Source: a virus. From it: a stretch of DNA of 62,627 bases. A program made the position numbers and the translations under genes. The notes beneath the pieces were generated by a model. The model was given only the letters and a program-made list of their open reading frames with translations. It was not told the DNA's origin and searched no databases. Numbering within the stretch: position 1 is the first letter of the stretch; the number at the start of each line of letters is the position of its first letter. The stretch covers positions 1 through 62,627 of the IMG/VR virus record IMGVR_UViG_3300025115_000633; one strand, 5' to 3'. This document shows, piece after piece, positions 3,055-43,346 of the stretch.

Positions 3055-3911
3055 ACGTTCTTGTGGCTATGGACGATGGTATGGGTAATGGTCTTATGAC
3101 TACGCCCATGATTCAGATCGTTCATGCTAACGGGCATACTGTAGACGTTGTTTGTAGTTATGTCAGATGTCAGGAGATAGCCTTTAAGCATTGGGACTGC
3201 GTTAAAAATGTTTTTGATGTAAATCAGATGCGGTCGAAAATGGTTTATGATGCGGCTCTTTGGAGCTGGAATTTAAAAAACCTCAGGTCTGTTGTTAAAG
3301 CTAAACTCCACTACATGTTCTCAGTTCCAGGTAAAGATTCAGATGATTGGATAAAGAGGTTTAAAAAACATGAGGTTTTATACAACGTTGACCAGGCTTT
3401 GAAAATAGGCTGTAAATTTGATGAGGTGCCGAAACTCAGGGTGTACAGTAATCCCGTGGAAGTGAATCTGAAGAAGGTGGCTATTGGTATAGGGTATTTG
3501 AAAAGTAAGCCTCATTGGAAGGTTAAGTGGATAGCCAAACATTGGGGCAATGATAACTTCCGCAATTTGTGCGATAAACTTTTGGCCGCTGGATTAATCC
3601 CTGTGGTGGTGGGGGATGCAAAGGATTATGATGATGACGGTCACCATATAATGTTACCAGGGATGCAAACGGTTTGTGGCAGGCCTCTCCAGCAAGTGGT
3701 GGATGAAATAGCAAAATGTTCCCTATACGTGGGTAATGATACGGGTCTTATGCACGTGGCGGCTGCGTTGGGAAAGCCATGTGTTGCCAGCTTTCAGATG
3801 GGTTCGATGCTGAAGAATCATCCGTGGGAAGTTCCTTGGATAGGTTTTCAAACAAAGCCGAATGTTGACCAGATGTTCAAAGCCGTTATGCAGTTGAGAG
3901 GTGAAAAATGA
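3051..3911 (+). CDS. GT9-like (heptosyltransferase-type) glycosyltransferase
   Basis: A 286-aa protein with a two-domain GT-B look. The N-terminus has a glycine-rich start (MDDGMGNGLMTTPMIQ, close to the GDGLL..P.. motif of heptosyltransferases). The C-terminal half carries VGNDTGLMHVAAALGKPCVA at about 230-250, the typical GT9 signature. TTG 3051 overlaps the upstream TGA (TTGA) and follows GGAGAAAG. At 286 aa it is somewhat short for the family (usually about 320-350). Confidence 0.8.
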   Translation: MNVLVAMDDGMGNGLMTTPMIQIVHANGHTVDVVCSYVRCQEIAFKHWDCVKNVFDVNQMRSKMVYDAALWSWNLKNLRSVVKAKLHYMFSVPGKDSDDWIKRFKKHEVLYNVDQALKIGCKFDEVPKLRVYSNPVEVNLKKVAIGIGYLKSKPHWKVKWIAKHWGNDNFRNLCDKLLAAGLIPVVVGDAKDYDDDGHHIMLPGMQTVCGRPLQQVVDEIAKCSLYVGNDTGLMHVAAALGKPCVASFQMGSMLKNHPWEVPWIGFQTKPNVDQMFKAVMQLRGEK

Positions 3912-4678
3912 AATACGCTGTCGGTATCCCGACCTGTGATCGACCGAAAGAACTGAAGCGAGTTGTCGAGGCTTTTCTGGGACAAACAGTGTCTCCCAGT
4001 ATGATAGTGATTGTGAATAACAATTCCAATAATTTTGGTGTTTGGCATGATGCCGATTTTTGCACGGCACTGGCCACTAAGAAGGGTATTTTGGTGGCTC
4101 GTAATAATTATCCTACACTAGGTCCCGAACAGGCACATCAGACGTGCCTTGATTATTGGATTAACAAAAACTTAGATATCGCCGTCAGATGGGACGACGA
4201 CTTGGTTCCGGCCACATCCTGTATGGAAAACCTGTTATCCCACTTTGGCGACCCCAACATTAACTGCGTCGGCGGTTGTTACCCAAGAGAAGGTAAGCCG
4301 GTGTGGGAGGGTGGACCTTTAGGCGGACTACCTTCACCGGATGGTAACCCTAATCATGTGCAGTTCTTTGAGTGGGGGCAGGCCACGCTACCTCTTCCAG
4401 TTAAGAGCCTCTATAGCGGATTTGCTTACAGGGTTAAGAAGATGGTTGAGGTGGGCGGCTTTTGCACTGAGTATTCTAGGATGGGTTTCCGTGGGGAGAC
4501 TGATGCCACACTCAGGTTGGGTGGTTGCCTGGTTGAACCCAAAGCCATAGCACTACACTTGCTGGCAAAAGGTGGAATCCGAGCTTTTGGCACAGACGAA
4601 CTTCAGAGGTTGGACACAAAGCTTTTTGAGCATAGAATGAAGGACTTGGGTATAGTTGTAGGAGAAAAGCACGTATGA
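3908..4678 (+). CDS. GT2-like glycosyltransferase
   Basis: A 256-aa protein starting YAVGIPTCDRPKELKRVVE, followed by IVIVNNNS and the acidic triad RWDDDLVP at about residues 94-101, as in GT-A enzymes that bind Mg or Mn. C-terminal GGFCTEYSRMGFRGETDATLR resembles the GG.de....ge..el..R acceptor-side motif of GT2. Starts at ATG 3908 inside the previous stop (ATGA). Acceptor unknown. Confidence 0.8.
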   Translation: MKYAVGIPTCDRPKELKRVVEAFLGQTVSPSMIVIVNNNSNNFGVWHDADFCTALATKKGILVARNNYPTLGPEQAHQTCLDYWINKNLDIAVRWDDDLVPATSCMENLLSHFGDPNINCVGGCYPREGKPVWEGGPLGGLPSPDGNPNHVQFFEWGQATLPLPVKSLYSGFAYRVKKMVEVGGFCTEYSRMGFRGETDATLRLGGCLVEPKAIALHLLAKGGIRAFGTDELQRLDTKLFEHRMKDLGIVVGEKHV

Positions 4679-7016: not shown

Positions 7017-7294
7017 GCGAATTGGGAGAAAAATTGGTGCCTAAAGGTATTACGATGTTGGTTGACGGATGTTGGAATTGTATTCATCGCAATCAGTTTC
7101 ATTGCGGGTTTGCACCCGTCCAACCTCAACTAATAGGGGCTAACGGGGATACTTCCGAGATGATGAAGTGGACCCAGAAATGGGCAGCAGTGCCTTTTGG
7201 CAAGTGTGAACTGTGGGCTAAGACCCCCGTTGATATCCCTGTTAAAGCGGGGGTGTTCGCTGAAATTAAGGAGAAGACAGATGATCAACAGTAA
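7013..7294 (+). CDS. Small cysteine-containing protein, 93 aa
   Basis: Starts at ATG 7013 (ATGA overlap) with AAGGAGA upstream; an earlier in-frame ATG at 6977 lacks a ribosome site. CWNCIHRNQFHCGF at about 21-34 plus a later FGKCELW suggests a metal-binding site with four cysteines. Function unknown. Confidence 0.65.
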   Translation: MSELGEKLVPKGITMLVDGCWNCIHRNQFHCGFAPVQPQLIGANGDTSEMMKWTQKWAAVPFGKCELWAKTPVDIPVKAGVFAEIKEKTDDQQ

Positions 7295-7454
7295 TGATAT
7301 CCCGTATTGGGGGGATGAAGATCCTGAATTTGGTACATGTGAAGAGTGTGGAGAAGAACGCGACGTAATTCTCATCGAACATCCTATAACCAAAGAAGAT
7401 GTTTGGCTATGTGAGGATTGTTATACTGACTTGTTGGACGAGGTGGAATTTTGA
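7281..7454 (+). CDS. Small zinc-ribbon protein, 57 aa
   Basis: ATG 7281 follows AAGGAGA and overlaps the preceding gene by 14 bases. CEECGEE at about 20-26 and CEDCYTD at about 44-50 form a CxxC...CxxC zinc ribbon. Such short acidic zinc ribbons are common phage proteins of unknown role. Stop TGA 7452-7454 overlaps the TTG start of the next gene. Confidence 0.7.
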   Translation: MINSNDIPYWGDEDPEFGTCEECGEERDVILIEHPITKEDVWLCEDCYTDLLDEVEF

Positions 7455-8272
7455 CCAACCTGCTTGTATGCATACGATGCCACAAATATCCTACGCTCGT
7501 GGAGGACACCATCAGTAGCGTTAAATGGGCTACTGACAGTTCTTTCACGAAGATAATGCTTGCCGTCGACGGGCAATCTTCAATCTCGTCCAAGTTCGCC
7601 GGCAGGGGCGACCTGAAGGTTTATGCGTCGAACAAGCGGTGGGGGTGGGGTGCCGGACTGTACGGTTTAATGGCTGAAAGCATAAGCTGGGCGGAAAAGA
7701 ACTTCTCGTTTGACCATTTCCTGTCCATAGATTACGATGCCCTTTTCATTAAGCAAAAGGCGGATGTGGCGTTATTAACCCTGATAGATTCTGAAGATGT
7801 GGGGTTGATTGGAGCACATGAACCTGACAGTGTTAGGGGTAAGGCTTCGGTCAAATCTTCATGGAATGGGGTAATATCCGCTTTCGGGGAGCCGTCATCT
7901 AACTATATCTTTGGTGAGGGAGTGCAGGGCGGGTGCATGCTCCTTACTCGCAGGGCTATCAATGAGATGGCCGCCAGGGGGATGTTTGACGGCAACTTCA
8001 AGAAAGCCAAGGAATTTGTGAGGATAACTGATGACCGCCTGCTCCCAATGTTCGTAAGGATGTGTGGGCTGACGATTAAAGATTGTAAGTTAATCAGGTG
8101 CGAGTGGACGGCCTCAGGAGATCCGAGAGGTTTGGAGAGTAAAGGGATTTACCTTATCCACCCGACTAAGCTTCGACCCAAAGGGTCTACGGTGGCTACG
8201 GAAGTGACGATGCGGAATTACTTTAGGAAGATACGGGGCGAAAACCCGTTACCGCTTACATTAAAGGAGTAA
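7451..8272 (+). CDS. Putative GT-A glycosyltransferase
   Basis: A 273-aa protein. LVCIRCHKYPTLVEDTISSV at 4-23 resembles the opening of GT2-type sugar transferases, and FLSIDYDALFIK at about 91-102 supplies the acidic D-x-D pair. QGGCMLLTRRAI at about 158-169 and the DDRLLPMF element further on fit the acceptor half. TTG 7451 follows GAGGTGGA. More diverged than the other GT genes in the block, so the assignment is weaker. Confidence 0.65.
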   Translation: MTNLLVCIRCHKYPTLVEDTISSVKWATDSSFTKIMLAVDGQSSISSKFAGRGDLKVYASNKRWGWGAGLYGLMAESISWAEKNFSFDHFLSIDYDALFIKQKADVALLTLIDSEDVGLIGAHEPDSVRGKASVKSSWNGVISAFGEPSSNYIFGEGVQGGCMLLTRRAINEMAARGMFDGNFKKAKEFVRITDDRLLPMFVRMCGLTIKDCKLIRCEWTASGDPRGLESKGIYLIHPTKLRPKGSTVATEVTMRNYFRKIRGENPLPLTLKE

Positions 8273-18109: not shown

Positions 18110-18421
18110 ATGAGCGAAATCGGCGCATACCTAATCTGCTTATCCGTGCTTCTTATGTGGGCAAGCAAGCTCACAAAGAAGTATAGAAAGGCGGTATTGT
18201 GGACGAGCTTCGGTGTCCTGATAGTGGTAGGTGTTCTTGATATATCTCTACTCAATACAGGACAGCAGACAATCACGCAGTTCATCCAGTCCATAGTTCC
18301 GCAGTGGGTTGGATTGATAATGGTGGTGTTTTTCGTATTCACGCTTGGCTTTGTATTTGGCATACGCCAGATGTTGCCAGCATTACTCGGTGTTATTGCA
18401 GGACACCTTTTTTGGAGTTAA
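18110..18421 (+). CDS. Small membrane protein, tandem copy 2
   Basis: A 103-aa protein with the same plan as copy 1: YLICLSVLLMWASKLTKKYR, a second segment VLIVVGVLDISLL, and MVVFFVFTLGFVFGIRQM, ending GHLFWS. GGAG lies upstream of ATG 18110. Tandem duplication suggests dosage or a heteromeric membrane assembly. Function unknown. Confidence 0.7.
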   Translation: MSEIGAYLICLSVLLMWASKLTKKYRKAVLWTSFGVLIVVGVLDISLLNTGQQTITQFIQSIVPQWVGLIMVVFFVFTLGFVFGIRQMLPALLGVIAGHLFWS

Positions 18422-18424
18422 TCA

Positions 18425-18757
18425 ATGTCTGATTTAGCCATACCGATTGAATCAACGCCGGTCACGCCGCTCGTGCCGAACAAAATTATTCCGGTGCATA
18501 TCCTAGTCACGAATACGCCAATGGGCAACAAGGTATATCGCACGACGTTTCACGTTGTAGTAAAGGAAGCATACGAAGATGCTGATGGCAACATAACATT
18601 TTGCGGACGGACAGGAACGTATTTTGACCCCGATATATCACAACTCGGCGGCGGCTTTGAGCAGTATCAGTCAGTGGTCGATGATGTATTCGCAGGCGAA
18701 TTTCAGATTGTGTCGTTGCTGGTGCAAATGGGCAAGATTACTTGGAATGAGCAATAA
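18425..18757 (+). CDS. Hypothetical protein
   Basis: A 110-aa protein with beta-strand character and DADGNITFCGRTGTYFDPD in the middle. No membrane segment. It overlaps the next start by one base (TAATG). Unrecognised, probably a minor virion protein by location. Confidence 0.6.
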   Translation: MSDLAIPIESTPVTPLVPNKIIPVHILVTNTPMGNKVYRTTFHVVVKEAYEDADGNITFCGRTGTYFDPDISQLGGGFEQYQSVVDDVFAGEFQIVSLLVQMGKITWNEQ

Positions 18758-21480
18758 TGGCTGACATCGTTTTGGTTGCTGCAGGCAACGGAACAGCGGC
18801 TAACGCTTGGTCAACTTGTAATAGCGGCTCGCCGCCAGCGGCAGGCGATCTTATTTATCTATCGAATAATGGTTGTATTCTTGCGTTAGATGGCGGTGAT
18901 GGGGCAACTTATACTTGTGCGTCGATTAGGGCAAGGACTACTGGTGGTGGATATACGTCAGGGTCAATCAATCATAACAATTATACAAATTACACTCTCG
19001 CGTGTGACCTTTATGGCGGGTCGGTAGGCACAACTCTATTGACTAATCCAGCCGGTAAAAACATTATTTCTATCGGAAAGATATACGGCGGTCATACAAC
19101 AACAGCCGGAGTAGTCGCAGGTGCGGGGACTATTGGCTCGATTGCAGGCTGCTATGGCGGAACTGCCAGTAGTTCTATGGCGTTGTTCGTCACAGGGACT
19201 GTAGGGTCGATAGGCGAGTGCATAGCATCGAATTATTTATGTGCTTCGGTAAGTGCAAATATTACCACAGGTGTCACTTTAGCGAGAGGCGGGTCAGGCA
19301 CTAACGCTCATGGCATACGAGTAGGAGGTGGCTTCAAGATAGCATCAATAACAACGGCTGAAGGCGGTAGTGGCACAGGTGCTTGTGGGGTTCGGGGCGA
19401 TTATGGAAACATCGGAGATGTTGGAACGGCAACCGGTGGGTCAGGAACGAATGCGTATGGCGTGACAATAAGCGGCTCGTCTGTGTATAGACTTGATACC
19501 GTAACCACCGCACAAGGTGGTATCGGACCTGGCGCACATGGCGTTTATGTCGATGTCGCATATACATGCAAGGGCATAGGGACTGCGATAGGCGGCGGTA
19601 ATGCAACGGCATACGGTGTTCTATGTAGAGGAACTTTGACTAACGGGGTGACGACAGCGAAAGGTGGAACCGTTGCTGGCGCACATGGTGTAGTTGTTTA
19701 TGGCCATACATCAACGGTAGATATTTCAAACTTGGACTTTAGCGGTTTTGCGACGCCAGTGGGACTTGATAAAGTCAGACTGCCAGCCAATGCTCAATTT
19801 GCTGTTAGGACGAGTGCAGGGGCAGAGATGCCGTGCATCGAAGAGGCCTCGATTGTAGCCGCCGAGAATGTTGTGTCGGGCGTCGCTCGGTATCCGTTAG
19901 GAGGCAATGGCACATACCCAACTAGTGAAAGCGTGATTGCCGATGTTATGTCATATACGAACAGCGTGCTTGAAGCAAACAAAGCGAGTATATTAAATAG
20001 CTACACCTTCACCTATGGTCCCCCATATGAACAATACGACGTTCAGGGCACTTATGACGCTTCTCTATATGTGGAGAAAACGGCTGTTGCTCCTGTTGAT
20101 GTTATTGTCAGCGGATTCTTGCGGTGGGTGGGAGGCACAGAATATGGTATTTACCCTACGACTGAAACGAGTAAGGCAGAACAATTGATTGCGGATACTG
20201 CTGAAGTTGAAGCGAATAAATCAAGTATAAAAGACGACACCACAATTCTGACCATTGCGGGAACTTATGACTTTCAAGGAGCTATCGACTCAGCGGTTGA
20301 CGCTCAACGTTCTTCTGATGAGGCAGAAGTTGTCCCCTATGCCCCTGTCATAATCGTAGGTAATACCATTCTAGGAACTGATGGCACCCACCCTACTGCC
20401 GCCACATCTAAAGCAGAGCAATTGGCAGAGGACGAGGCCGTAGTTGAAAGCAACAAAAACGGAATCCTTACCACTACGACTATTCTTGGTGTAGCAGGAA
20501 CTTTTGATGTTGATGAATATGAAGCGGCGAGAAATACAAATCCTGGGGAGGAGAACGTCAGGTTGGGCGTAACGTGGCTATACTTGGGGGATCAACAGAT
20601 AGGGGAGCTTGATGTATCCCAATGGATACCTATTTCAGATATTGTGGCTGCCGAGCATGTTGAGCAGGGGTACTATAATTACGTGGGAGGGGAAGCTGGG
20701 ACTTTTACTCATAAGCCAGAATACACGCTAATAAGTGGGGTGGTGGCTCCTGAATATGTGCTTGTTGGGCACCACAATTACCAGGGTGGCGAGGAAGGGG
20801 AGTTCGATGAGCAGGCACGGAACACTAATCCTGGACAACAGAATGTGTTGGCAAATATATCTTATAAGGTTTGGGGTGTAAGTTATTCGGGAGGTTTGGT
20901 TTACACTATACCTTCACCTGTGCCACCTACGCCGTTACCTCCAGGCGGGTGGGAAACTTTCTCTCCGGCTACACCTGTTGCCCCATCAATGAACTTCCCG
21001 AGGCTTGCCGATATCGACAATGCCTACAGGATGTTAAAGAACATGGGGGACTGGTATTACCCTGAGATTACGTACAAAGAGCTTATTATCCCTGATAGGG
21101 CTGAAATTGATGATATTCATCTCGAAGCCTCAGAGACGAGAAAGCGGTTTAAGCTGCCGATTAAGGTCAGGGCGTATATCCATCCCGATCCAGTTACCCA
21201 GTCTCTTACCAATTTTGGGTTGGAAGAGAGACGTAATGTGACGATGTCGATGACTGTGCCACATATGATTGATGCAGGTTTGGCTACAAGGGATGTTAAA
21301 ACAGGGGAGATATCCGTATTGGCTAAGATAGGGGATAGGTTCTGGCACTCAGAGAGTGTTCAGTATGATGTGCTGGAGGTAAAGAGAAGCAAGATGTTCG
21401 GGCTAACGGATATCCCGTTGACGTTTGATTTCGTTGCGGAACGTTTCCGCTTGGAATCTACGCCATATGAGGGGGTGTAA
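18757..21480 (+). CDS. Repeat-rich fibre fused to neck-type C-terminal domain
   Basis: A 907-aa protein in three parts. Residues about 1-330 contain glycine-rich repeats of about 30-35 aa (GGSGTNAHGI, GGSGTNAYGV, GGIGPGAHGV, GGNATAYGV), typical of a beta-helical fibre. Residues about 375-620 have three to four copies of a module with T(Y/H)PT...SKAEQL...VE.NK..I...TTIL..AGT(Y/F)D. After a proline linker (about 730-745), residues 745-907 form a compact domain without repeats that looks like a neck or tail-completion protein. The fusion suggests a collar-attached fibre or whisker. Confidence 0.7.
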   Translation: MADIVLVAAGNGTAANAWSTCNSGSPPAAGDLIYLSNNGCILALDGGDGATYTCASIRARTTGGGYTSGSINHNNYTNYTLACDLYGGSVGTTLLTNPAGKNIISIGKIYGGHTTTAGVVAGAGTIGSIAGCYGGTASSSMALFVTGTVGSIGECIASNYLCASVSANITTGVTLARGGSGTNAHGIRVGGGFKIASITTAEGGSGTGACGVRGDYGNIGDVGTATGGSGTNAYGVTISGSSVYRLDTVTTAQGGIGPGAHGVYVDVAYTCKGIGTAIGGGNATAYGVLCRGTLTNGVTTAKGGTVAGAHGVVVYGHTSTVDISNLDFSGFATPVGLDKVRLPANAQFAVRTSAGAEMPCIEEASIVAAENVVSGVARYPLGGNGTYPTSESVIADVMSYTNSVLEANKASILNSYTFTYGPPYEQYDVQGTYDASLYVEKTAVAPVDVIVSGFLRWVGGTEYGIYPTTETSKAEQLIADTAEVEANKSSIKDDTTILTIAGTYDFQGAIDSAVDAQRSSDEAEVVPYAPVIIVGNTILGTDGTHPTAATSKAEQLAEDEAVVESNKNGILTTTTILGVAGTFDVDEYEAARNTNPGEENVRLGVTWLYLGDQQIGELDVSQWIPISDIVAAEHVEQGYYNYVGGEAGTFTHKPEYTLISGVVAPEYVLVGHHNYQGGEEGEFDEQARNTNPGQQNVLANISYKVWGVSYSGGLVYTIPSPVPPTPLPPGGWETFSPATPVAPSMNFPRLADIDNAYRMLKNMGDWYYPEITYKELIIPDRAEIDDIHLEASETRKRFKLPIKVRAYIHPDPVTQSLTNFGLEERRNVTMSMTVPHMIDAGLATRDVKTGEISVLAKIGDRFWHSESVQYDVLEVKRSKMFGLTDIPLTFDFVAERFRLESTPYEGV

Positions 21481-33360: not shown

Positions 33361-33756
33361 ATGACAACCAGATGGAAAACCCCGTCCCTTCCATGGGCGG
33401 GTACACTGGACGACTTTTTCAGCGTTAAGGATGACATTGAGGTTTTGAGAACCAGCATCACATTTATTTTGCTTACCAGCTATGGCGAGAGGGTGATGCT
33501 TCCGACTTTTGGCTCCACTTTGTCGAGAGTGTTATTTGAGCCAAACAATACCTATACGGTGGACAGCTTAAAAGCATCTATTGTTGAGGCTATCAGAGCG
33601 TGGGACGATCGTATAGAAGTGATTGAAGTTAGTGCGACGAGCTTTAATGAGCAGTTGGACGTAGCTGTAACTTTCCGTAGCACGAAAGACCCGACGGCAA
33701 CAACTCAGACGGTAATGTTGCCGGTTAAACTTTCGTCGATTACCCATAACGATTAA
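33361..33756 (+). CDS. Baseplate wedge protein, gp25/W-like
   Basis: A 131-aa gp25-type protein: ILLTSYGERVMLPTFGSTLS at about 38-57 matches the conserved lysozyme-like gp25 signature (T..GER...P.FG..L), then LFEPNN and the VIEAIRAWDDRIEV-like VEAIRAWDDRIEVIEV. GGAGG precedes ATG 33361. It forms the inner wedge ring with the next gene product. Confidence 0.9.
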   Translation: MTTRWKTPSLPWAGTLDDFFSVKDDIEVLRTSITFILLTSYGERVMLPTFGSTLSRVLFEPNNTYTVDSLKASIVEAIRAWDDRIEVIEVSATSFNEQLDVAVTFRSTKDPTATTQTVMLPVKLSSITHND

Positions 33757-33767
33757 GGAGTGTTCTG

Positions 33768-35762
33768 ATGGTTCAGAAGCCGGCAATTAATTACACGAAT
33801 GTGACTTATGAATCTATTCAAGCCGCAATAAAAGCTTGGATACAGGCTAAGTTTCCTGATACATGGTCGGATATGTACGAGAGTTCGATGGGCCAGGTTT
33901 GGGTTGAGGCAGTGGCTTATGCTTTTGACCAGTTGAACTTTGGGCTTAATTATGCGGCTAACGAGGTGTATCTTCCTTCGGCACGTGACCGCCAAAGCGT
34001 TATGGATATCGGGAAAGCTGTGGGTTATCAGATGCGGACAGCCACCGCCGCTTCTGTTAAATGCGCGGTATCTATAGCTTCGGTTCAGGCCAAGGATGTT
34101 GTTATTCCTCCTGGCGTTACGTTGACCGCAACATCTGGTGTCACTTTCAGGACGCTTGAACAGTGGTATATTCCAGCAGGCTCCCTCTCTGCCGAGATTT
34201 ACATGTCGGAAGGTGTTGCCCATTCAGACAGCTTTACTTCTGATGGTTCGTCCTTCCAGAAATTCAAATTGACCACCAACGAGGTTGTTCACGGCTCGAT
34301 AACCGCAAGCGTATCTGGTACGGAGTGGACGAAGGTTGATGGTTTGATAATGGCTGATTCCGCTACTCAGGCATATGAAATCGAGTATGACGTTGACGAT
34401 TATGGGTACGTCAAGTTCGGTGACGGAACAAACGGCATCGTGCCAGCTATGGGTGAACCTATAACTGTAAATTACAGAGTTGGCGGCGGGCTGGCAGGCA
34501 ATGTGGCGGTAGGAGAGATTAACCAGGTCGACAATAATAACTGTTATTTACGTGATATTCTACCTACAACGTATGTGGCGGTTACGTTTTATAATTCCGA
34601 AAGAGGTACAGGTGGTCTTGAGGCCGAGACGGTAGAACATGCGAAGATGGGAATACCTCACTGGACAAAGGCTGCTGGCAGGGCGGTGACGATTAATGAC
34701 TTCAACATTCTGGCAGTTCAGTTCAATGACCCTACGTATGGCAGCCCGGCGTTCGCCAGTGCAAAACTCAAATACATCATCCCTGAGTATAACATCGTTC
34801 AGATGTTTTTGTGGGCAAGAGATAACGGAGGGAACATTGTTGTTCCCAGCTCCGGTCTCAAAGATGCCATATTTGCGTATTTTATGAACGATGGAACAAA
34901 TTCAGTAAGGGTTGCGTGTACGGAGATGGAGGTGGAGGACGGTGGCATATTGAAAATCGACGTTAATGCCGAACTGACTGTCGATAGTGATTACTCCATA
35001 GCCACCGTCGAGGGCGACGTATCGACGGCCTTGAACAGCTTTTTCGACAGTACCGACGTTATACCTGGCTATGATATACGCCTCAGCCACGTCTACAGAA
35101 TCATTCAGGATGTATCGGGAGTTCTGCATACTCTCATCGTCAACGTTACGGCACACAGGGAGACCTCTGAGGTGCTGGCTGGAACATCGGGCACATTCGA
35201 CCTGCCGCCAGGACAACCCATAGCCCCCGGCTCTGTTGTGATTGCCGACGATTCAAACACTCTGACGGACGATAAAGATGGAAACCTGGTTGGTGATGGC
35301 TCTGGCACTATTGACTATGATACAGGAGCATACAGCTTTACTCTCACAGCTCCATCTGGAGACATCGTTGCTACGTATGGCATTATTGAAATGTACCAGA
35401 GAGGGAAGGCTGAACAGACGCTGGACGGGACAACCGAAACCATAAAAGGCGTTCTTCAGTATCCGCCGGTCATCCCGATAGACCCAGTATCTGGGGCTAA
35501 TGGTATAGCTTTTGCTGTTGCTGACCGTGTTGTGGTAGATGATGGCAATGGCAATCTGGTCGGCGACGTTAATCCGTTGGGTGTGAACCGCATAGATTAC
35601 GATACAGGGGCGTATGAGTTCACCCTGTCCACATTGCCGGCCAACGGTTCTATTTTGTACTCGACGTATAAACAGCTTCTCAGGGTAAATGCCGAAGATA
35701 TTCCCATTGATGCCTCCGATATGCCGGTAAAGGGTACGTGGACGTTCTCCTCTTCTAGCTGA
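33768..35762 (+). CDS. Baseplate wedge protein, gp6/J-like, with added beta modules
   Basis: A 664-aa baseplate J-type protein. The N-terminal half has WIQAKFPDTWSDMYESSMGQ, AADRQSVMDIGKAVGYQMRT-like DRQSVMDIGKAVGYQM, and GTGGLEAETVEHAK. The C-terminal quarter has two copies of a beta module at about 475-545 and 577-640 (DDKDGNLVGDGSG ... DYDTGAYSFTL; DDGNGNLVGDV ... DYDTGAYEFTL) that resembles the insertion in the capsid protein. Such modules could decorate the virion surface. AAGGAG precedes ATG 33768. Confidence 0.85.
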   Translation: MVQKPAINYTNVTYESIQAAIKAWIQAKFPDTWSDMYESSMGQVWVEAVAYAFDQLNFGLNYAANEVYLPSARDRQSVMDIGKAVGYQMRTATAASVKCAVSIASVQAKDVVIPPGVTLTATSGVTFRTLEQWYIPAGSLSAEIYMSEGVAHSDSFTSDGSSFQKFKLTTNEVVHGSITASVSGTEWTKVDGLIMADSATQAYEIEYDVDDYGYVKFGDGTNGIVPAMGEPITVNYRVGGGLAGNVAVGEINQVDNNNCYLRDILPTTYVAVTFYNSERGTGGLEAETVEHAKMGIPHWTKAAGRAVTINDFNILAVQFNDPTYGSPAFASAKLKYIIPEYNIVQMFLWARDNGGNIVVPSSGLKDAIFAYFMNDGTNSVRVACTEMEVEDGGILKIDVNAELTVDSDYSIATVEGDVSTALNSFFDSTDVIPGYDIRLSHVYRIIQDVSGVLHTLIVNVTAHRETSEVLAGTSGTFDLPPGQPIAPGSVVIADDSNTLTDDKDGNLVGDGSGTIDYDTGAYSFTLTAPSGDIVATYGIIEMYQRGKAEQTLDGTTETIKGVLQYPPVIPIDPVSGANGIAFAVADRVVVDDGNGNLVGDVNPLGVNRIDYDTGAYEFTLSTLPANGSILYSTYKQLLRVNAEDIPIDASDMPVKGTWTFSSSS

Positions 35763-35769
35763 GATCGTT

Positions 35770-36705
35770 ATGAGCTATTCGTTCTACGAATTGCTGCCTG
35801 CAATAATTAAGCTCAGAGACGCTATATCCTCTGGGCAGGAAAGTGACACCCTGCTCCAGAAGATTTTTTACATGCTTGACCAGGAGGCTGATTGGGCTGA
35901 CGGCAAGATCAACACCATCTATGACCTTATTGACCCCAACGACTGTCCGGAAGAGTATCTTCCTATGCTTGCCACGTTGGTCGATTTCCCTTTGCAGGGC
36001 GGTTGGACTGAAGATAAGAAGCGGATGGCAATACTGGGTGCGGTCAAGCTTTATTGCAGAAAGGGTGTTGTTGCGAGTTGGCGGGCTGTCCTCGCTATGT
36101 TCGGGCACCCCGAGATGGATATTCAGGAACTTTATAAAAATGAAATCCATCCCGTCGACGGCTACTCGACCGAGAAAGACTATTTCGATTTCCCTGCCGC
36201 CAGAATTGATTTGACGGAATACGGCTCTACGATACTGCCGCCGGATACCGATCCCGTTTGGCAGGGTATTGAATTAATGCGCCCGATACATGTTCTTGTC
36301 CGTAGAGATTTGGTTAAAGATGAAACCCAAGATGCCATATCCGCTTCGGACTCCACCGAGGCTGGCTCTTTCTCCAAAATAACAGATTGTGCCGGCATGT
36401 TATCCGATGGGGATGTCACCCTTCCTGGCGAAGAGTGTCAGGTGGGCTTGCAGATTTCCTCATACGCCTGCACTAACTTCTCTTGTGAAGCTACCAGTTG
36501 TGAAACCTTTTGTGAAGGGTCGTGTGAGAGCATTTGCGAAACTGAATGCGAAACCTCATGCCAGATCGGTTGCGAGAACGTGTGCCAGACGTTTTGTGAA
36601 GGAGAATGTGAAAGTTTTTGTGAGGGTACATGTACGGTTTCATGCCAGGTGTGGTGCCAGCTATATTGCCAACAAAATTGTCAATATAAGGTGCAGTCTA
36701 CATGA
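35770..36705 (+). CDS. gpI-like baseplate protein with period-4 cysteine tail
   Basis: A 311-aa protein. Residues 1-195 are a P2 gpI-type domain (FYELLPAIIKLRDA, DQEADWADGKINTIYDLIDP, then RPIHVLVRRDLV). After a linker, residues 244-304 carry 16 cysteines exactly every fourth position (CETFCEGSCESICETEC and so on), usually followed by E or Q. Two more Cys lie at 234 and 239. No known gpI has such a tail to my knowledge. The gene is followed by a GT25 gene (ATGA overlap), then a paralog, then a radical-SAM enzyme. The repeat could be cross-linked, glycosylated, or metal-binding. Confidence 0.8.
   Translation: MSYSFYELLPAIIKLRDAISSGQESDTLLQKIFYMLDQEADWADGKINTIYDLIDPNDCPEEYLPMLATLVDFPLQGGWTEDKKRMAILGAVKLYCRKGVVASWRAVLAMFGHPEMDIQELYKNEIHPVDGYSTEKDYFDFPAARIDLTEYGSTILPPDTDPVWQGIELMRPIHVLVRRDLVKDETQDAISASDSTEAGSFSKITDCAGMLSDGDVTLPGEECQVGLQISSYACTNFSCEATSCETFCEGSCESICETECETSCQIGCENVCQTFCEGECESFCEGTCTVSCQVWCQLYCQQNCQYKVQST
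36499..36681 (+). repeat. (C-x3)15-C coding repeat
   Basis: Each fourth codon from 36499 to 36681 is TGT or TGC, 16 in all. The intervening triplets vary and are rich in E, Q, S, T, G. DNA-level identity between units is low, so selection on the protein pattern rather than recent slippage is likely. Confidence 0.9.
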
Positions 36706-37400
36706 GCAAGGTTTTAGGTTTCTTTGATGTAGCGTATGTGATTAATCTCGATCACCGACCAGACAGAATGGAAAATGTGACTAGAGAGATGCAGAAAGTG
36801 GGCATAGATTTTGTGAGGGTGCCGGGTGTGGAATATGTCGGCGACGGCAAAGATTTGCCTGATGCCCCCGGCTATGAAACGCCGGACAAGAAATGCAGGG
36901 CTTTGGGTTGCAGTCTTGGGCACAGGCGGGCGGTGCAGATGGCTAAGGCTTCAGGAGCATCAAACTGCCTGATTTTTGAGGATGATGTAACTTTCATCCA
37001 GGGATTTGCGAAAGAGGCTTCTGCCGCCTTGAGGGAGTTAAGATGGGTGGATTGGGAATTGTTCTATTTTTACAGCGACCCTCACCTTGTCCCTCCATTA
37101 TCTGTCGGGATAACTGAACATTTGCGGATTCTTCCTGGAACTTGTTGCTGCCATGCGTATGCACTTAACAAGAGGGCGATTGATTATTTTTTGGGGGAGT
37201 TCAATCCTCCTTATAATGGGATGATTGTCGATTATTTCACCAAGAGTGCTCCACTTGTTAAAGTGGCCACGAAAGTAAATCTTGCTTTTCAGGCGAGTGG
37301 ATTCTCTGATATCAAACATGAGTATGTGGTCAATAGTCCTGGCAAACCTCATGTGTGCGTTAAAACGAAAGAAGAATACGAGGCGTTGATTAAAGCATGA
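36702..37400 (+). CDS. GT25-type glycosyltransferase
   Basis: A 232-aa protein of the LPS-type glycosyltransferase family 25: VAYVINLDHRPDRMENVTRE at about 10-29, then ALGCSLGHRRAVQMAKASGA and CLIFEDDVTF at about 89-98 (acidic D-D metal site). ATG 36702 overlaps the previous stop, and its end overlaps the second gpI gene. GT25 enzymes add galactose or other sugars to LPS or to collagen hydroxylysine; placed between two cysteine-rich tail genes, a tail-protein acceptor is conceivable (inference). Confidence 0.88.
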   Translation: MSKVLGFFDVAYVINLDHRPDRMENVTREMQKVGIDFVRVPGVEYVGDGKDLPDAPGYETPDKKCRALGCSLGHRRAVQMAKASGASNCLIFEDDVTFIQGFAKEASAALRELRWVDWELFYFYSDPHLVPPLSVGITEHLRILPGTCCCHAYALNKRAIDYFLGEFNPPYNGMIVDYFTKSAPLVKVATKVNLAFQASGFSDIKHEYVVNSPGKPHVCVKTKEEYEALIKA

Positions 37401-39127
37401 GTGATACTGGGTTTTATTTTTATAATCTGCTGCCTTGGATTGTCAGACTGAACGACCAGATTGCCGCAGGGTCTGATACTAATACTACGTTACAGGGCAT
37501 ATTTTCGATATTAGACCTTCAGGCGGATTGGGCTGATGAAGAGGTTCTCGGTATATACAACTTGATGAACGCTGAGGTGTGTGACGCCGAGTTCCTTCTT
37601 TATCTGTCAGCCACTCTGGGCACCGCTGTCACCACAGATATCTCGCCAATTTTCCGCCGTTGGTTTGTACGCAATCTTGTGAAATTTCATAAGATAAAAG
37701 GCACCCACATGTCGTGGGATAAGCAGTGGTTATGGCTAACTGAGAACGCTTACGGGGCAACTGAGCTATGGAAGGGGCAAATTCATGAGGTGGGCGACTA
37801 TGAGCAGTCAGAAGATCCTAACCATCAGTTAAATTCGGCGAGGTTTGACGTTTATAGTTCTGATGGTTCAACGTATCTTGTTCCCTCTGAAGCTCAGCTA
37901 TATGTCAATAAAATAGATGACCTTAGACCTGTACATGTTCTCCTTCGTTATTGGTATTTGGCTGGCGGAATTGATGATTATTTTGCCCCTGTGCTTGAAG
38001 AGCCAATATTTAATGCTCAGGCTAATTTTGAAGACTCGGCTCAGAACTTGTCCGATTATGTGACCACAAGAGTGGTATGTATTGGCTCTTCGGTGGTTTG
38101 TCAGAGTGGTTGTGAAAGTTTATGTGAAGATTGGTGTCAAACGGGTTGTGAAACCATATGCGAACACTTCTGCGAGATAGATAGTTGCCAGATAAGATGC
38201 ATGTTTTCTAGCGAGGGCAACCAGCAGTGCCAGACAACGTGTATGATTTTAACCGAACCGGCATGCCAAACAAGTTGTGTATTCTCAGCTGTAATGAATC
38301 AAATATGTTATGCCAGTTGCCAATTGGCAATTCAACCTTGGTGTCATACGAGTTGCGTAGGTGCACTTGAGCCCTTCTGCCAGACATCCTGTACGGTTTG
38401 TAATTGTGAAAGTTATGCTTTTTGCCAGACATCATGTATTGGTTTAACTCAAGCTGCATGCCAAACAATGAATATGATGTCAGTTGGTCCTTACCCAAGA
38501 CCTCCTTGGTGGCCACCGGCGAATGAAAGTATCCCCGATTGGCTTTGGAATCGTCCTGGTGGTGATCCCTGTCTTACTTCTCAAACATTGACAATACGAC
38601 CGCCGTGGTTTCCACCACCGGGTGACCCTTGTTTCACTTCTCAAACATTTCCTCCTCTACCCCCAACGTCCCCATGTCCTACACATTGTGAATTCGTCTT
38701 TGAAGGCGGTGGTGTAATTTGGTCTCCCACAGGTCGATTTTATTGTTATAATGATCCGTTTGGTGACAGTCCCACACCTGTACCGCATATTTTTGGTGGA
38801 GACGGCTATATAGAAATGCGGTATAATGGAATTCTTAAAGGACTATCCGTAACAACCAATTTTACAAATCATTTTAGCCCTAAGTTAATTAGCGTCTCGT
38901 TTTCGGCTAATAAAGAAGGAACAACTTTAACTGGAGCCCCAACAACTGGGGATATTAGTGTACCTCTTAGTGGTATTTACCACGCTATAAATAATTCAGA
39001 TGGCACCGCCGTTGTATCAAAAGGCGATCTCATTGGCTTATCAGCAAGTTGCAGATATGAAGGTGGTGGAGCAGGCAGTGTTTGGGGCAATGTTGATGTG
39101 ACTTTTGATATTGAGGTTACGAGTTAA
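37397..39127 (+). CDS. Second gpI-like protein: cysteine repeats and candidate receptor-binding tip
   Basis: A 576-aa paralog of the protein at 35770. N-terminal gpI domain (FYFYNLLPWIVRLNDQ, LQADWADEEVLGIYNL, RPVHVLLRYWYL). Cysteines lie at 235, 239, 243, 247, 251, 255 and 259 (every fourth), then about seven CQTSC-like pairs spaced 10-15 aa apart. A proline/tryptophan linker (about 374-430) leads to a C-terminal beta domain (about 435-576) of adhesin character. ATGA overlap upstream. The C-terminal part is AT-richer, perhaps a swapped tip. Confidence 0.75.
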   Translation: MSDTGFYFYNLLPWIVRLNDQIAAGSDTNTTLQGIFSILDLQADWADEEVLGIYNLMNAEVCDAEFLLYLSATLGTAVTTDISPIFRRWFVRNLVKFHKIKGTHMSWDKQWLWLTENAYGATELWKGQIHEVGDYEQSEDPNHQLNSARFDVYSSDGSTYLVPSEAQLYVNKIDDLRPVHVLLRYWYLAGGIDDYFAPVLEEPIFNAQANFEDSAQNLSDYVTTRVVCIGSSVVCQSGCESLCEDWCQTGCETICEHFCEIDSCQIRCMFSSEGNQQCQTTCMILTEPACQTSCVFSAVMNQICYASCQLAIQPWCHTSCVGALEPFCQTSCTVCNCESYAFCQTSCIGLTQAACQTMNMMSVGPYPRPPWWPPANESIPDWLWNRPGGDPCLTSQTLTIRPPWFPPPGDPCFTSQTFPPLPPTSPCPTHCEFVFEGGGVIWSPTGRFYCYNDPFGDSPTPVPHIFGGDGYIEMRYNGILKGLSVTTNFTNHFSPKLISVSFSANKEGTTLTGAPTTGDISVPLSGIYHAINNSDGTAVVSKGDLIGLSASCRYEGGGAGSVWGNVDVTFDIEVTS

Positions 39128-39148
39128 ATGCTCTATAACATTGGTTAA

Positions 39149-39172
39149 GTTTAAGTGTCCGTTTGGTATAAA
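39149..39172 (+). promoter_or_regulatory. Phage promoter before the radical-SAM gene
   Basis: GTTTAA 39149-39154, 12-base gap, TATAAA 39167-39172, GG directly before it. Same geometry as five other sites in the window; the -10 differs by the last base. ATG 39193 is 20 bases downstream with AGGAGG between. Confidence 0.6.
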
Positions 39173-39192
39173 AAGGTCTAAGGAGGTTTAGA

Positions 39193-40602
39193 ATGAAGCA
39201 GTTGACAGAGGGGTGCTCACTGAGGAACTCAGCCGTCTGTGAGCCGAAAACTTTGGATTTTGAAATCGAGGGGCGTAAGTTTTCCTATGATTGCAATTCA
39301 ATGAAATTGTTCCAACTCGAAGAGGGAGAGAGCATTACTGGGGCAGATCGTGTACCCCAGTTCCCTTTCACGTCATGGTTTGGCGTTTCTGCAATGGTGC
39401 TGGAAGCCACCCACGCCTGCCATAATGCTTGCCGCTATTGCTTTGTTGACCTGAAATACGATGACCATGTCCACACGATGAAGCTGGACACGGCTTTACG
39501 GGCTATAACCTACTTTTTCCCCAGACCGGAAAAGGGGTTTAATCCTCGGGTTAAAGCCCCCCATATCGGGTTCTTCGGCGGAGAGCCGTTACTCAACTGG
39601 CCACTAATTGATGGGGTGACGGGGTTCTTAAGGGGGTATTGCCACCCTATACGCCCGTCGTTGGGTATGACCACGTCTGCCGTTCTAATGACAGAAGAAC
39701 GAGCTAAATACCTCACCGATCACGGATATTCCTTTATCGTCTCGTTGGACGGACCCAAAGATATTCATGATGCCTTTCGCCCGCATAAAGATGGAGACGG
39801 AACGTATGACAGGGCTATTCAGGGCATTAAATACCTGAACGACGCCGGCACCAGGAACATTACCCTGAGAGGCACGTTCACCGCAGACTGCGTGAGATTG
39901 CTGGACAGGGTCGTTCACCTCAACGAACTTTGTGACGTGGGGATGGGCAACTGGGCGTCCGTGGAGCCAGCAGACCTCTCTGAACACGCCTGCGTCAAGG
40001 CTGGACCGGGGATGGTGTTCACCCCCGAAACCGTGAGGGCTTTGGAATCTGAATATATGGCGTGTGCCAAATGGTTTGTTGAGAGGGTTAAAAATGGAAA
40101 GAAAGTCAGATTTCATCAGCTGTATAAAACGGTGGAGCGATTGCTCTACGGGTTTGCTTCCCCCAATGAGTGTGGGGCTGGCAGGGCATATATTGGTATC
40201 GGACCAACAGGTTCTATTCATGCATGCCACAGAGAGAACAACTCCTACATTGGTCACATGGACAAGGGGTGGATTGACGAAGCCCTCCGTGCTAAATGGG
40301 TGGATAACAGAGGCATTTACACTAGACCTAAGTGCGTAGCCTGCCCTATACGCTTTGTTTGTGGGAGTGGGTGCAGGGAGTCGTCTCTTGGGGATTCTGG
40401 GGATATAACTATACCTAACGTCATTTCTTGCGAGTTTTGGAAGCTGTTTTTCAAGGCTGCGGTATGGGTGGTGTCTGAGGTGGATAAGGCAACATTGATG
40501 ACTGCCATACCTATGCCTCAAGGGTTGTGCCGACCCAAGATTGGGCAATGTAAAGGCTGTGTAGATAAAGGAGAGCCTGTTGAAGGTAGCCCTGCTCCGT
40601 GA
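39193..40602 (+). CDS. Radical-SAM/SPASM protein maturase
   Basis: A 469-aa enzyme. Cys 76, 80 and 83 (CHNACRYC) form the C-x3-C-x2-C site for the SAM-binding 4Fe-4S cluster; FFGGEPLLNW is the GGEP motif. The C-terminus has a full SPASM domain: C327-x12-G-x4-C345, then C381-x2-C384-x5-C390-x3-C394 and C413, expected to hold two auxiliary clusters. Known SPASM enzymes modify peptides or proteins (thioether cross-links, formylglycine). Own promoter at 39149 and AGGAGG before ATG 39193. Adjacent cysteine-rich tail proteins are the obvious candidate substrates (inference); there is no small precursor peptide nearby. Confidence 0.9.
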   Translation: MKQLTEGCSLRNSAVCEPKTLDFEIEGRKFSYDCNSMKLFQLEEGESITGADRVPQFPFTSWFGVSAMVLEATHACHNACRYCFVDLKYDDHVHTMKLDTALRAITYFFPRPEKGFNPRVKAPHIGFFGGEPLLNWPLIDGVTGFLRGYCHPIRPSLGMTTSAVLMTEERAKYLTDHGYSFIVSLDGPKDIHDAFRPHKDGDGTYDRAIQGIKYLNDAGTRNITLRGTFTADCVRLLDRVVHLNELCDVGMGNWASVEPADLSEHACVKAGPGMVFTPETVRALESEYMACAKWFVERVKNGKKVRFHQLYKTVERLLYGFASPNECGAGRAYIGIGPTGSIHACHRENNSYIGHMDKGWIDEALRAKWVDNRGIYTRPKCVACPIRFVCGSGCRESSLGDSGDITIPNVISCEFWKLFFKAAVWVVSEVDKATLMTAIPMPQGLCRPKIGQCKGCVDKGEPVEGSPAP

Positions 40603-41530
40603 GTCCGGAGGCTATGGTGATATAATAACCATGTCCGCTGCCGGGCAGTCAGTAAAAGCCAGGATGGGTGCAGATGTCCATGTTGAGGCGTTTGTACCTA
40701 AAGATTTCGAGCAGGCGGCAGATCATCTTGTGGGCATTGATTCTGTGGTGGCATTGAACCCTCCGCCAATACATAGTAGGAGAAGACGCGATACTTATTT
40801 GGATGTTCATCAGCACCCATATCTCAGAACGGTATTTGAGGCTAAGCCCGATAAGATAGTTGATTTGTTTTGCCCTGGTTTTCTTTATGAAGAGACGACA
40901 CGTGATGAAATTCTGTACAGCAGGGCACAACTTTTCGCTATGGCTGCCGGCGGTCTTGATGTGTCGAAGGTTGCACCTATTTGGCAAATTGAGCCGTGGG
41001 AAGCAGATAATGCAGAGTATATGATGAAAACTCTGAAGCTGGAGGATGGGTTTATAGGTGTTGCTTTGCGAGGGACATGCAGTTGCAGAACTTTTCCTGC
41101 GGATAAGTGCCAGGAGCTTTTGATGGGGATAAAGAAAATGGGGTTTCAGATAGGGCTTTTGGATTGCGTACATCCTAAATATTCTTTACCCTCTGGCTCT
41201 GTAAGGATAGTCGGGTTTGATATTCCGACCGTGGCGGCCATACTAACTAAAGCGAGGTTGCTGATCACCGTAGATACAGGAATGTTGCATTTAAGTCAGG
41301 CAGTGGGCACGAAATTTATAACAATTTTCGGTCCCACGACAACTGCTATAGTAAATACTTATGATAACTGTGTGGGTAAAGTTGTAAATCCGGGAACCAA
41401 ATGCTCTGTACCATGCAATTACAGAAGGATGCTTGGGTGGAACAGTGAAGTTTGTAGGAAGACGGGGTGCGATAGAATGTTATCGGTTGAGGTGCAGCAG
41501 GTGCTTTCAACCTTTAAGGAGGCATTATGA
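40580..41530 (+). CDS. GT9-like glycosyltransferase
   Basis: A 316-aa heptosyltransferase-type enzyme: VALLRESGGYGDIITMSAAG at the N-terminus (G.GD....) and LLITVDTGMLHLSQAVGTKF followed by ITIFGPTT at about 230-257. A cysteine cluster lies near the end (CSVPCNYRRM ... CRKTGC). TTG 40580 overlaps the radical-SAM gene by 23 bases with GGAGAG upstream, indicating translational coupling with it. It is the second GT9 gene in the window. Confidence 0.82.
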   Translation: MKVALLRESGGYGDIITMSAAGQSVKARMGADVHVEAFVPKDFEQAADHLVGIDSVVALNPPPIHSRRRRDTYLDVHQHPYLRTVFEAKPDKIVDLFCPGFLYEETTRDEILYSRAQLFAMAAGGLDVSKVAPIWQIEPWEADNAEYMMKTLKLEDGFIGVALRGTCSCRTFPADKCQELLMGIKKMGFQIGLLDCVHPKYSLPSGSVRIVGFDIPTVAAILTKARLLITVDTGMLHLSQAVGTKFITIFGPTTTAIVNTYDNCVGKVVNPGTKCSVPCNYRRMLGWNSEVCRKTGCDRMLSVEVQQVLSTFKEAL

Positions 41531-42396
41531 GTTGCATGATATGCGTTTTCTCATATGAACGTTATGGACATTTGAAATTGTGCCTTCATTATCTTTCTAA
41601 GGCTATAGAGGGTATGGATTTCAAAGTAGTGGTTATGGATGATGGGAGCAAAGACGAGCGTATTCCTGGAATGTTGCACCAAAAGGTGGTGTCCAATGAA
41701 ATAGCCAGATTTATGACCAGTACTAATCCACGAACAGAGGATACCCAATCAAATAAAGCCGCCCGTATTGGGCTTCAGCGTCAGGCTGCGGTTGAGTATT
41801 TTCTTACTATCGGGACAGAACCGTATCTTTTTCTCATGGATGATGATATCATTCTAGGCAAAGGTGTTATACAGGAGGCCGTAGCTGATTTCGAGATGAT
41901 GAGGAATATAACGGACGCTAATCCTGGAGGGTTGTCGCTTCACGCAATGTTTGCCCATGATGGTTATAGATATTTTGGTCAGAATATTTTTTGCGAATGT
42001 AGATTCTCTGGCGAAGCCAATATGCTTCTGAGCAGGGACGGGCTACAGAAAACAGGGAACAAATTTAACGACCAGAAAAGTGGATTTGGGGATACGCAAA
42101 TTAAAGCTATACGGGATGCTGGCTTGAGATATTACACCCGCGTTCGTCCTCCTTATGCTGTTCAACATATAGGGATAGGGCTTGGCGGTTCAGTTATTCA
42201 TGCGGGGGTTGTTCGTCAGCCGAAATGGACATGCCACCCATATAGACATCTCTTCAAAGAAGACCAGGGCAAGCTTGTGTGTGTGCCGGGCTTTAACATA
42301 ATCAGATACACGGAGCTTCTGGGGCAGGTGGATCCTTCTCAGGCTCCTTTGGTTTATCTTGATAGGATTAAGGAGTTATCCAATGGAAGCGAGTAA
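41527..42396 (+). CDS. GT2-like glycosyltransferase
   Basis: A 289-aa protein: MICVFSYERYGHLKLCLHYL at the N-terminus, VVVMDDGSKDERIP at about 36-49 and LFLMDDDIILG at about 101-111 (acidic metal-binding run). ATGA overlap with the GT9 gene and AAGGAGG upstream, so radical SAM, GT9 and GT2 form one translational unit. Acceptor unknown. Confidence 0.82.
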   Translation: MSCMICVFSYERYGHLKLCLHYLSKAIEGMDFKVVVMDDGSKDERIPGMLHQKVVSNEIARFMTSTNPRTEDTQSNKAARIGLQRQAAVEYFLTIGTEPYLFLMDDDIILGKGVIQEAVADFEMMRNITDANPGGLSLHAMFAHDGYRYFGQNIFCECRFSGEANMLLSRDGLQKTGNKFNDQKSGFGDTQIKAIRDAGLRYYTRVRPPYAVQHIGIGLGGSVIHAGVVRQPKWTCHPYRHLFKEDQGKLVCVPGFNIIRYTELLGQVDPSQAPLVYLDRIKELSNGSE

Positions 42397-42889
42397 ATTC
42401 TTTGAGCATGTCTCTGAGCCGAAAGGTGCTTTCCGTTTAGAGGCAGTAGGCAAGGGCGGTGAACGGAAAGTGTTGGTTGACATCAATAATTTGATAGTCA
42501 AAAATTTTGCCACCCAGTGCTCATATCTCCTGGCAGGCGATGGGCTGAACGACAGATATATTAACCGTATAGGTTATGGTGTGGGCACGTCTGAGCCTTC
42601 GGTAGACGATTATGAGCTTACACGGTATGTACCTTATGGCGAGGAAGAGGGGGATCCGTATATCGCTGTGGCTACTGTGGACGATGTTCAGTTCCCCACG
42701 ACGTACAGCGTGAGGTTCCGGGCGACGGTGGAGGCTCCCGATTTTAACGGCGTGGAGTGGAGTGAAGCTGGGCTTATGACAGCTAACACTAGTCCTTATT
42801 TAATGTCTAGAGTAACTTTCCCGCCGCAGATGAAGTCCGAGTATTGGTCTTGGACGGCTGCGTGGACGATATATTGGATCCCAGCATAA
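42383..42889 (+). CDS. Tail-fibre-like protein, tandem copy 1
   Basis: A 168-aa beta-rich protein. ATG 42383 follows AAGGAG and overlaps the GT2 gene by 14 bases; ATG 42359 is inside that gene without a ribosome site. NNLIVKNFATQCSYLLAG, RIGYGVGTSEPS and VEWSEAGLMT have clear counterparts in the next gene. The pattern recalls fibre or collar domains found at the end of tail gene blocks. Confidence 0.65.
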   Translation: MEASKFFEHVSEPKGAFRLEAVGKGGERKVLVDINNLIVKNFATQCSYLLAGDGLNDRYINRIGYGVGTSEPSVDDYELTRYVPYGEEEGDPYIAVATVDDVQFPTTYSVRFRATVEAPDFNGVEWSEAGLMTANTSPYLMSRVTFPPQMKSEYWSWTAAWTIYWIPA

Positions 42890-42899
42890 GGAGTGAAAA

Positions 42900-43346
42900 A
42901 TGAAGGGTTTAGTTGAAATTCAGAAAATGAACAGGGACGGTGAGGTTGTTGATGAACGGAAGATAACTAATCTGGTGGTTTCAGGAGCATACGTCAATCT
43001 AGCCCGCCTGCTGGCAGGTCCGGAGCATAATCTTAACCGTGAAATCACCCAGATGCAGTTTGGGACGGGAAGCATGTCGCCGGCAATCACCGACACTCGT
43101 CTTCAGCTACCAATTACCCCCGTTAAGACGATTCAGTCGGTGGACATATTTTATGCAGAGTTTTCAGTAAGCTTCAGGGCATTCTTGCTTGCAGAAGAAG
43201 GCAATGGGTTCTCTATATCGGAAGCTGGGCTGATAACCGATTCAAGAGTCCTGATTGCTAGATGCGGGTTCTCCGGTTTAGAGAAGACTTCAGACTATAT
43301 TCTAGGGTTTACCTGGACTATTGTAACTGGCGAGTTCGATTACTAA
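42900..43346 (+). CDS. Tail-fibre-like protein, tandem copy 2
   Basis: A 148-aa paralog of the preceding protein: TNLVVSGAYVNLARLLAG, QMQFGTGSMSPA, FSISEAGLITDSRVL and FTWTIVTGE align with it. AAGGAG precedes ATG 42900. Last gene of the structural region; a host-like promoter begins 11 bases after its stop. Confidence 0.65.
   Translation: MKGLVEIQKMNRDGEVVDERKITNLVVSGAYVNLARLLAGPEHNLNREITQMQFGTGSMSPAITDTRLQLPITPVKTIQSVDIFYAEFSVSFRAFLLAEEGNGFSISEAGLITDSRVLIARCGFSGLEKTSDYILGFTWTIVTGEFDY

Follow-up and report, generated by a model that had tools for sequence, protein, structure and literature searches.

Cysteine arrays of phage tail proteins are paired with radical-SAM/SPASM enzymes: a candidate thioether-forming system for virion proteins

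The virus record IMGVR_UViG_3300025115_000633, analysed here over all of its 62,627 bases (hereafter the window), derives from a contractile-tailed phage, encoding a tail sheath, a major head protein, a head protease, a DNA polymerase, and gp25- and gpJ-like baseplate genes. Three genes on its plus strand are the subject of this work: two gpI-like baseplate proteins, one of 311 residues with a C-terminal cysteine array (35770..36705) and one of 576 residues with 32 cysteines (37397..39127), and a radical S-adenosylmethionine (SAM) enzyme of 469 residues with a SPASM auxiliary-cluster motif (39193..40602), for which the two gpI-like proteins are the proposed substrates. Pairing of such arrays with SPASM genes is general among viral contigs, whether the search begins from the array or from the enzyme.

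In the first gpI-like protein, 16 cysteines occupy residues 244-304 at a spacing of exactly four (array codons 244-305; 36499..36684, plus strand), forming 15 different C-x3 units that are mostly of the type C-[E/Q]-x-x. The second carries seven cysteines at period four (235-259), followed by CQTSC-type pairs and a C-terminal part rich in proline and aromatic residues. A preliminary description, made from the DNA of the window alone, had recorded both arrays, and its coordinates and residues prove correct. Chance origin is ruled out, as the longest period-4 cysteine run in 20,000 shuffles per protein was six for the first protein and five for the second, versus 16 and seven observed, and Tandem Repeats Finder reported no 12-base tandem repeat in the array DNA; because of the latter, the four-residue period is attributable to selection on the protein. 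Both proteins had been taken as gpI-like. The first surpasses the Tail_P2_I (Pfam) cut-off comfortably (43.4 bits, cut-off 20.6), while the second falls below it (17.9 bits) and owes its assignment to an alignment with confirmed relatives. The predicted structure of the first protein is poor (predicted local distance difference test score, pLDDT, 48; below 50 in the array), and no claim is attached to the structure of the array. A tblastn search with this protein against 50,697 phage records returned no match.

The enzyme contains the radical-SAM motif CX3CX2C (C76-x3-C80-x2-C83), and scores 45.7 bits against PF04055 (cut-off 29.5). Its auxiliary-cluster cysteines are C327, C345, C381-x2-C384-x5-C390-x3-C394 and C413; all of the cluster cysteines on which the preliminary description based a complete enzyme are present, and they are invariant or nearly invariant among 15 homologues. 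Among solved structures, CteB (5wgg) is the closest in sequence (E-value 2e-40 over residues 65-428), and its seven auxiliary cysteines are identically spaced. A structural model based on 15 homologues (pLDDT 86) likewise finds its best fold match in CteB (E-value 1e-23; template-modelling score 0.72-0.77), followed by anSME, TigE, ChlB and SuiB, and in it the N-terminal 60 residues are predicted to form strands only. The nearest NCBIfam families, at 146-156 bits, are QhpD (TIGR03906; 156.1 bits, the best score, with a cut-off of 453), an ScfB-like orphan, the SCIFF maturase (TIGR03974; 153.6 bits, cut-off 425) and the PapB ranthipeptide maturase (NF047865; 146.3 bits, cut-off 340), and the cut-offs of the three named models are not reached.

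Arrays were sought in viral contigs through two C-x3 scans that were blind to the enzyme. The plain (C-x3)7 DNA scan yielded mostly noise in the form of simple-repeat frames, and a filter for diverse units was applied; eight low-complexity loci that passed this filter were set aside by eye, leaving 22 array contigs. A radical-SAM gene was present in 19 of these, versus one of 50 control contigs drawn from the same scans and subjected to the same family search (Fisher p = 2e-13), and the association persists if the eight set-aside loci are counted as arrays (19/30; p = 8e-10). When 18 array contigs were searched over their whole length, 15 were positive versus the same 1/50 (p = 3e-11), and 13 of 16 when two contigs first noticed through their enzyme (L055 and L058) were excluded (p = 4e-10). 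The preliminary description had named widespread cysteine-repeat gpI genes lacking a linked SPASM gene as grounds for its refutation, and this did not come about, as arrays of that kind are rare. Only three of the 22 contigs are enzyme-negative: two (G004 and G007) are incomplete, their DNA stopping at the array, and the third (G010) is a real exception.

The reverse scan, conducted with an alignment of four enzymes, retrieved 80 loci, of which 19 with at least 32% identity were designated class A. Upstream sequence of 4 kb or more is available for 15 class-A loci. In 14 of them an array precedes the enzyme gene on the same strand (L257 and L259 have short ones), and the remaining one, L261, shows C-x4-[E/Q] motifs in scattered form only (10 among 28 cysteines; p = 5e-4). 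In the other four (L249, L250, L260 and L207) upstream DNA is too short for the array count, and L207 nonetheless shows an array. Arrays also occur at about 25 of roughly 60 more distant SPASM loci. A further scan of viral contigs, anchored on gpI, found four contigs. Three of them encode the enzyme, namely L465, the L263 contig and the window's own relative, and the other, L182/L466, is a 7.8 kb fragment that stops at its arrays. With only four gpI relatives found, array-less gpI proteins offer no usable contrast group.

Within a continuous array each Glu or Gln (E/Q) is simultaneously at +1, +5 and -3 of some cysteine, and for this reason the residue rule was read from array ends, in 40 de-duplicated array proteins. 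At array-end cysteines, which have no cysteine at +3 to +7, E/Q is found at +5 in 91 of 116 cases (78%), and in just 5-14% at each of the remaining offsets from +2 to +12. At array-initial cysteines E/Q persists at +5 (131/155; 85%) and falls to 46/155 (30%) at +1 and 33/155 (21%) at -3; the drop at +1 has p = 8e-17, with a protein-bootstrap 99% interval of 0.22-0.72. Because E/Q is retained at +5 of array-end cysteines and lost at +1 of array-initial ones, the conserved unit, as read from these sequences, is C-x4-[E/Q] tiled every four residues, such that any rings closed within it would interlock. This rule is equally valid for class-A and other enzymes associated with arrays of the window's type, and is consistent, by analogy with known enzymes, with thioethers that join Cys(i) and Glu/Gln(i+5). 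In the window, E/Q stands at +5 of 16 of the 20 C-terminal cysteines in the first gpI-like protein, including the last (C304, Q309), and of 14 of the 31 cysteines considered in the second. The cysteine pairs of the second protein suggested the opposite polarity, in which the acceptor would precede the donor ([E/Q]-x-x-C; compare Asn20-Cys23 in NxxcA), and this was rejected in view of the low frequency of E/Q at -3 of array-initial cysteines.

The preliminary description regarded gpI as the substrate type, and gpI does carry arrays, but as one among several proteins. Array-bearing proteins match Tail_P2_I, central tail fibre J, tail fibre, Phage_Tail_Tip, Laminin_G_3, F5/8 type C, fibronectin III, RCC1 and Hoc-like families, and to judge from these matches the carriers are surface-type virion parts. 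Two classes of array are recognizable: in class 1, which includes the window, the residue after cysteine is Glu (43%) or Gln (39%), whereas class 2 (C-[S/T/G]-x-x) mostly has Ser, Thr or Gly there. In a tree of 87 enzymes, a well-supported clade of 17 occurs almost exclusively with class 2, and class A exclusively with class 1; motif labels change 19 times on this tree versus 39.6 times when shuffled, the tree being a quick one with some long branches of unsure placement. Motif type thus appears to follow enzyme clade. Class 2 arrays had already been clustered, without a function, in phrog_6085, which matches 17 array proteins as well as tandem array proteins of the jumbo phages CR5 and SEGD1; the entry gives neither function nor a link to radical SAM, and in the records seen its members either lack annotation or carry a wrong frame.

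Several loci merit description in their own right. In Cronobacter phage CR5 (L242, approximately 3100-3930), EarlPhillipIV (L246) and SEGD1 (L247, 3196-3904), two to three tandem C-x3 open reading frames (ORFs) belonging to phrog_6085 lie immediately 5' of two radical-SAM genes, and the records omit these ORFs, place them on the opposite strand in error (CR5_157) or read them in an incorrect frame (SEGD1_169). The unannotated array ORFs of SEGD1 are at 142179-142574 and 142591-142878 on its minus strand. In Phage Phass-1, which uses genetic code 15 (L463), an unannotated cysteine-rich ORF of 174 residues (7144-7665) directly follows a radical-SAM gene that is itself annotated as two coding-sequence pieces; as Gln is an array residue, arrays may be hidden in phages that read TAG as Gln. 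Class 1 arrays adjoin a SPASM gene in four genome contigs of Oscillospiraceae and other Bacillota (L340, L352, L429 and L430), which are probably prophages. The 292 kb viral contig of L041 (G001) encodes three consecutive radical-SAM genes at approximately 199.5-202 kb, and also a 45-cysteine protein with few E/Q residues. Lastly, a viral ORF of 861 residues with 141 cysteines in many CCC and CC clusters (L097, 1395-3977, minus strand) has no radical-SAM match in the surrounding DNA searched, and is a different kind of cysteine-rich protein.

A second activity accompanies the window's enzyme. A GT9-like glycosyltransferase gene of the heptosyltransferase family (40580..41530, plus strand) overlaps the 3' end of the enzyme gene. 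Of the 19 class-A loci, 15 have such a gene 3' of the enzyme, usually with overlapping ends, versus none of the approximately 55 remaining SPASM loci (p = 2e-12). The 135 kb contig L465, which has two gpI genes in tandem, contains a single ORF (18286-20553, plus strand; truncated where the locus ends) with both a radical-SAM/SPASM region (40-458) and GT9 (476-755), a fusion which argues that both act on one substrate. Together, linkage and fusion suggest that glycosylation is probably a second modification in the window's enzyme clade. The preliminary description, which mentions no glycosyltransferase gene, needs correcting in two further respects: the class 2 arrays go with an enzyme clade of their own, and the system as found in the window includes GT9. 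By profile, GT9 resembles lipopolysaccharide heptosyltransferases (1e-19) and only weakly TibC (0.003), a GT9-like heptosyltransferase of bacterial autotransporters that hyperglycosylates surface adhesins and has a four-cysteine motif (PMC4358343). Four cysteines are also conserved in the window-type GT9, at the spacing C-x3-C-x12-C-x4-C, unlike those of TibC (339, 342, 358 and 370), a difference that counts against a TibC-type iron finger.

The neighbouring genes complete the locus. A GT2-like glycosyltransferase gene (41527..42396, plus strand) follows GT9, as it does in six related loci, and a GT25-like gene (36702..37400, plus strand) separates the two gpI-like genes; having no counterpart next to arrays elsewhere, GT25 was rejected as a part of the system. 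The two gpI-like genes, GT25, the SPASM gene, GT9 and GT2 all lie on the plus strand with ends that overlap or almost touch. Upstream are a gp25-like baseplate wedge gene (33361..33756, plus strand) and a gpJ-like one (33768..35762, plus strand), the latter immediately 5' of the first gpI-like gene. Two small related proteins of phrog_5417 (function unknown) are encoded 3' of the glycosyltransferases (42359-42889 and 42900-43346); as they recur in many class-A loci, they may represent tail components of this module.

We consider it likely that the SPASM enzyme forms a ladder of Cys(i)-Glu/Gln(i+5) thioethers on the neighbouring tail proteins, and that GT9 adds sugar, to give a stiff, protease-resistant product that withstands reduction. 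The enzyme would cleave SAM and take hydrogen from the Glu or Gln side chain, probably at C-gamma by analogy with QhpD, and the cysteine five residues upstream, held by an auxiliary cluster, would close the thioether. Repeated along the array, such closures would create an interlocked ladder of overlapping rings, after which GT9 (and GT2) may glycosylate the same region, plausibly at Ser/Thr-rich x positions. The baseplate or tail tip would thereby gain a stiff, disulfide-free stalk or surface that resists proteases. The cross-linking that the preliminary description proposed accordingly gains in support from the linkage, the kinship with CteB, QhpD and PapB, and the C-x4-[E/Q] rule, with the thioether itself still a matter of inference. 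Somewhat more cautiously, we favor the broader proposition that phage virion proteins bearing up to dozens of Cys(i)-Glu/Gln(i+5) rings form a widespread class, served by several SPASM clades, one of which is combined with GT9 glycosylation.

The enzyme might instead act on the arrays by another reaction, such as formation of an alpha-carbon sactionine or formylglycine, epimerisation, or linkage to Thr or Ser at +2, an outcome we regard as unlikely while allowing it some weight. SPASM enzymes perform all of these reactions, anSME is the second-best fold group for the enzyme model, Thr or Ser occupies +2 in 44% of units, and CteB expressed in Escherichia coli linked Cys32 to Thr34 (PMC8326336). 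Yet the +2 position varies freely, while +5 is E/Q in 78-85% of cases even where no cysteine follows, and the nearest characterised relatives form non-alpha thioethers. Dense cysteine arrays often bind metal or form disulfides, and the arrays could accordingly be disulfide ladders or metal-binding domains (Zn or Fe-S) beside an enzyme of other purpose. This is improbable, since neither behaviour predicts a conserved Glu or Gln exactly at +5 of each cysteine, with Gln approximately as common as Glu, or explains the linkage to the enzyme and the tracking of motif type with enzyme clade. The flanking GT9, GT2 and GT25 genes and the enzyme-GT9 fusion would also suit a cassette for tail-protein glycosylation, in which the radical-SAM enzyme works on a sugar or sugar donor, but we consider this very doubtful, given that GT9 is limited to one enzyme clade, that arrays accompany several clades without it, and that the fold and cluster motif of the enzyme are of the peptide-modifying SPASM type. 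Spontaneous Cys-Gln thioesters of the complement type, for covalent attachment to host surfaces, have precedent in surface proteins and would draw on the Gln present in many units, but are hardly credible here, as Glu, which is unable to lose ammonia for such a bond, equals Gln in frequency and the radical-SAM gene would be left without a role.

A number of observations nevertheless weigh against the thioether ladder. We know of no exact precedent for Glu and Gln as equal acceptors. Several of the CQTSC pairs in the second gpI-like protein have no E/Q at +5 of their first cysteine; the true exception among array contigs, G010, lacks an enzyme over 35.6 kb; and every curated family cut-off is far above the score of the window's enzyme. 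Further, the link reported for CteB and Tte1186 runs from Cys32 to Thr37, a distance of five residues, but expression of CteB in E. coli gave Cys32-Thr34 rather than Thr37 (PMC8326336); the spacing is disputed, which limits the analogy with CteB.

Comparison with known systems places the proposed chemistry among established types. The seven auxiliary cysteines are spaced identically to those of the SCIFF ranthipeptide system (CteA/CteB, Tte1186), and the i to i+5 relation proposed here equals Cys32-Thr37; in the phage system, however, the substrate would lie within a large virion protein, in up to dozens of units and with Glu or Gln as the likely acceptor. Ranthipeptide precursors are short, with a leader and RRE-type recognition, as distinct from the virion-type proteins of 311-576 residues considered here. 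QhpD is likewise a SPASM enzyme that acts on a protein subunit rather than a small peptide, linking Cys to the methylene carbons of Asp or Glu, with Cys-Glu at C-gamma (PMC8172795), but its substrate QhpC has three links and no regular array, and no dehydrogenase genes were seen at the window locus. Freyrasin (PapA/PapB) shares multiple SPASM-made thioethers per chain from Cys to acidic residues, although PapB strictly requires Cys-X3-Asp (PMC8172795) in place of the Cys-x4-[E/Q] seen here. In general, known thioether acceptor carbons adjoin an acid, amide or hydroxyl group (PMC8326336, PMC8172795). The CXXX-repeat peptide maturase TIGR04115 is a curated radical-SAM family named after its CXXX-repeat targets; the window's enzyme matches its core domain only (60 bits, cut-off 350), and the model names no phage tail substrate. 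Of the database families, phrog_6085 covers the second array class.

The type of chemistry is therefore already known from ranthipeptides and QhpC, whereas what appears new is its application to virion proteins, along with the tiled code and the partner glycosyltransferase. We found no literature combining phage tails, radical SAM and thioethers in a search that largely did not extend to subscription journals and preprints. Radical-SAM genes of the Campylobacter phages CP220 and CPt10 have been described as probably metabolic (PMC2853527); if our interpretation is correct, many such phage genes would serve to finish virion proteins, rather than being metabolic extras, and a large set of unannotated cysteine-rich phage genes would be explained. 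It would also imply a covalent, reduction-proof construction of tail tips and fibres within the reducing cytosol, amounting to a covalent protein architecture new to viruses, and would provide thioether-forming enzymes that work processively on a simple repeat code. Class 2 has cultured relatives in SPN3US-type Salmonella phages, Cronobacter phage CR5 and Erwinia phages, which makes the general idea testable. More broadly, the pairing of array and enzyme suggests an unrecognised means by which viruses chemically harden, and probably sugar-coat, the parts of their tails.

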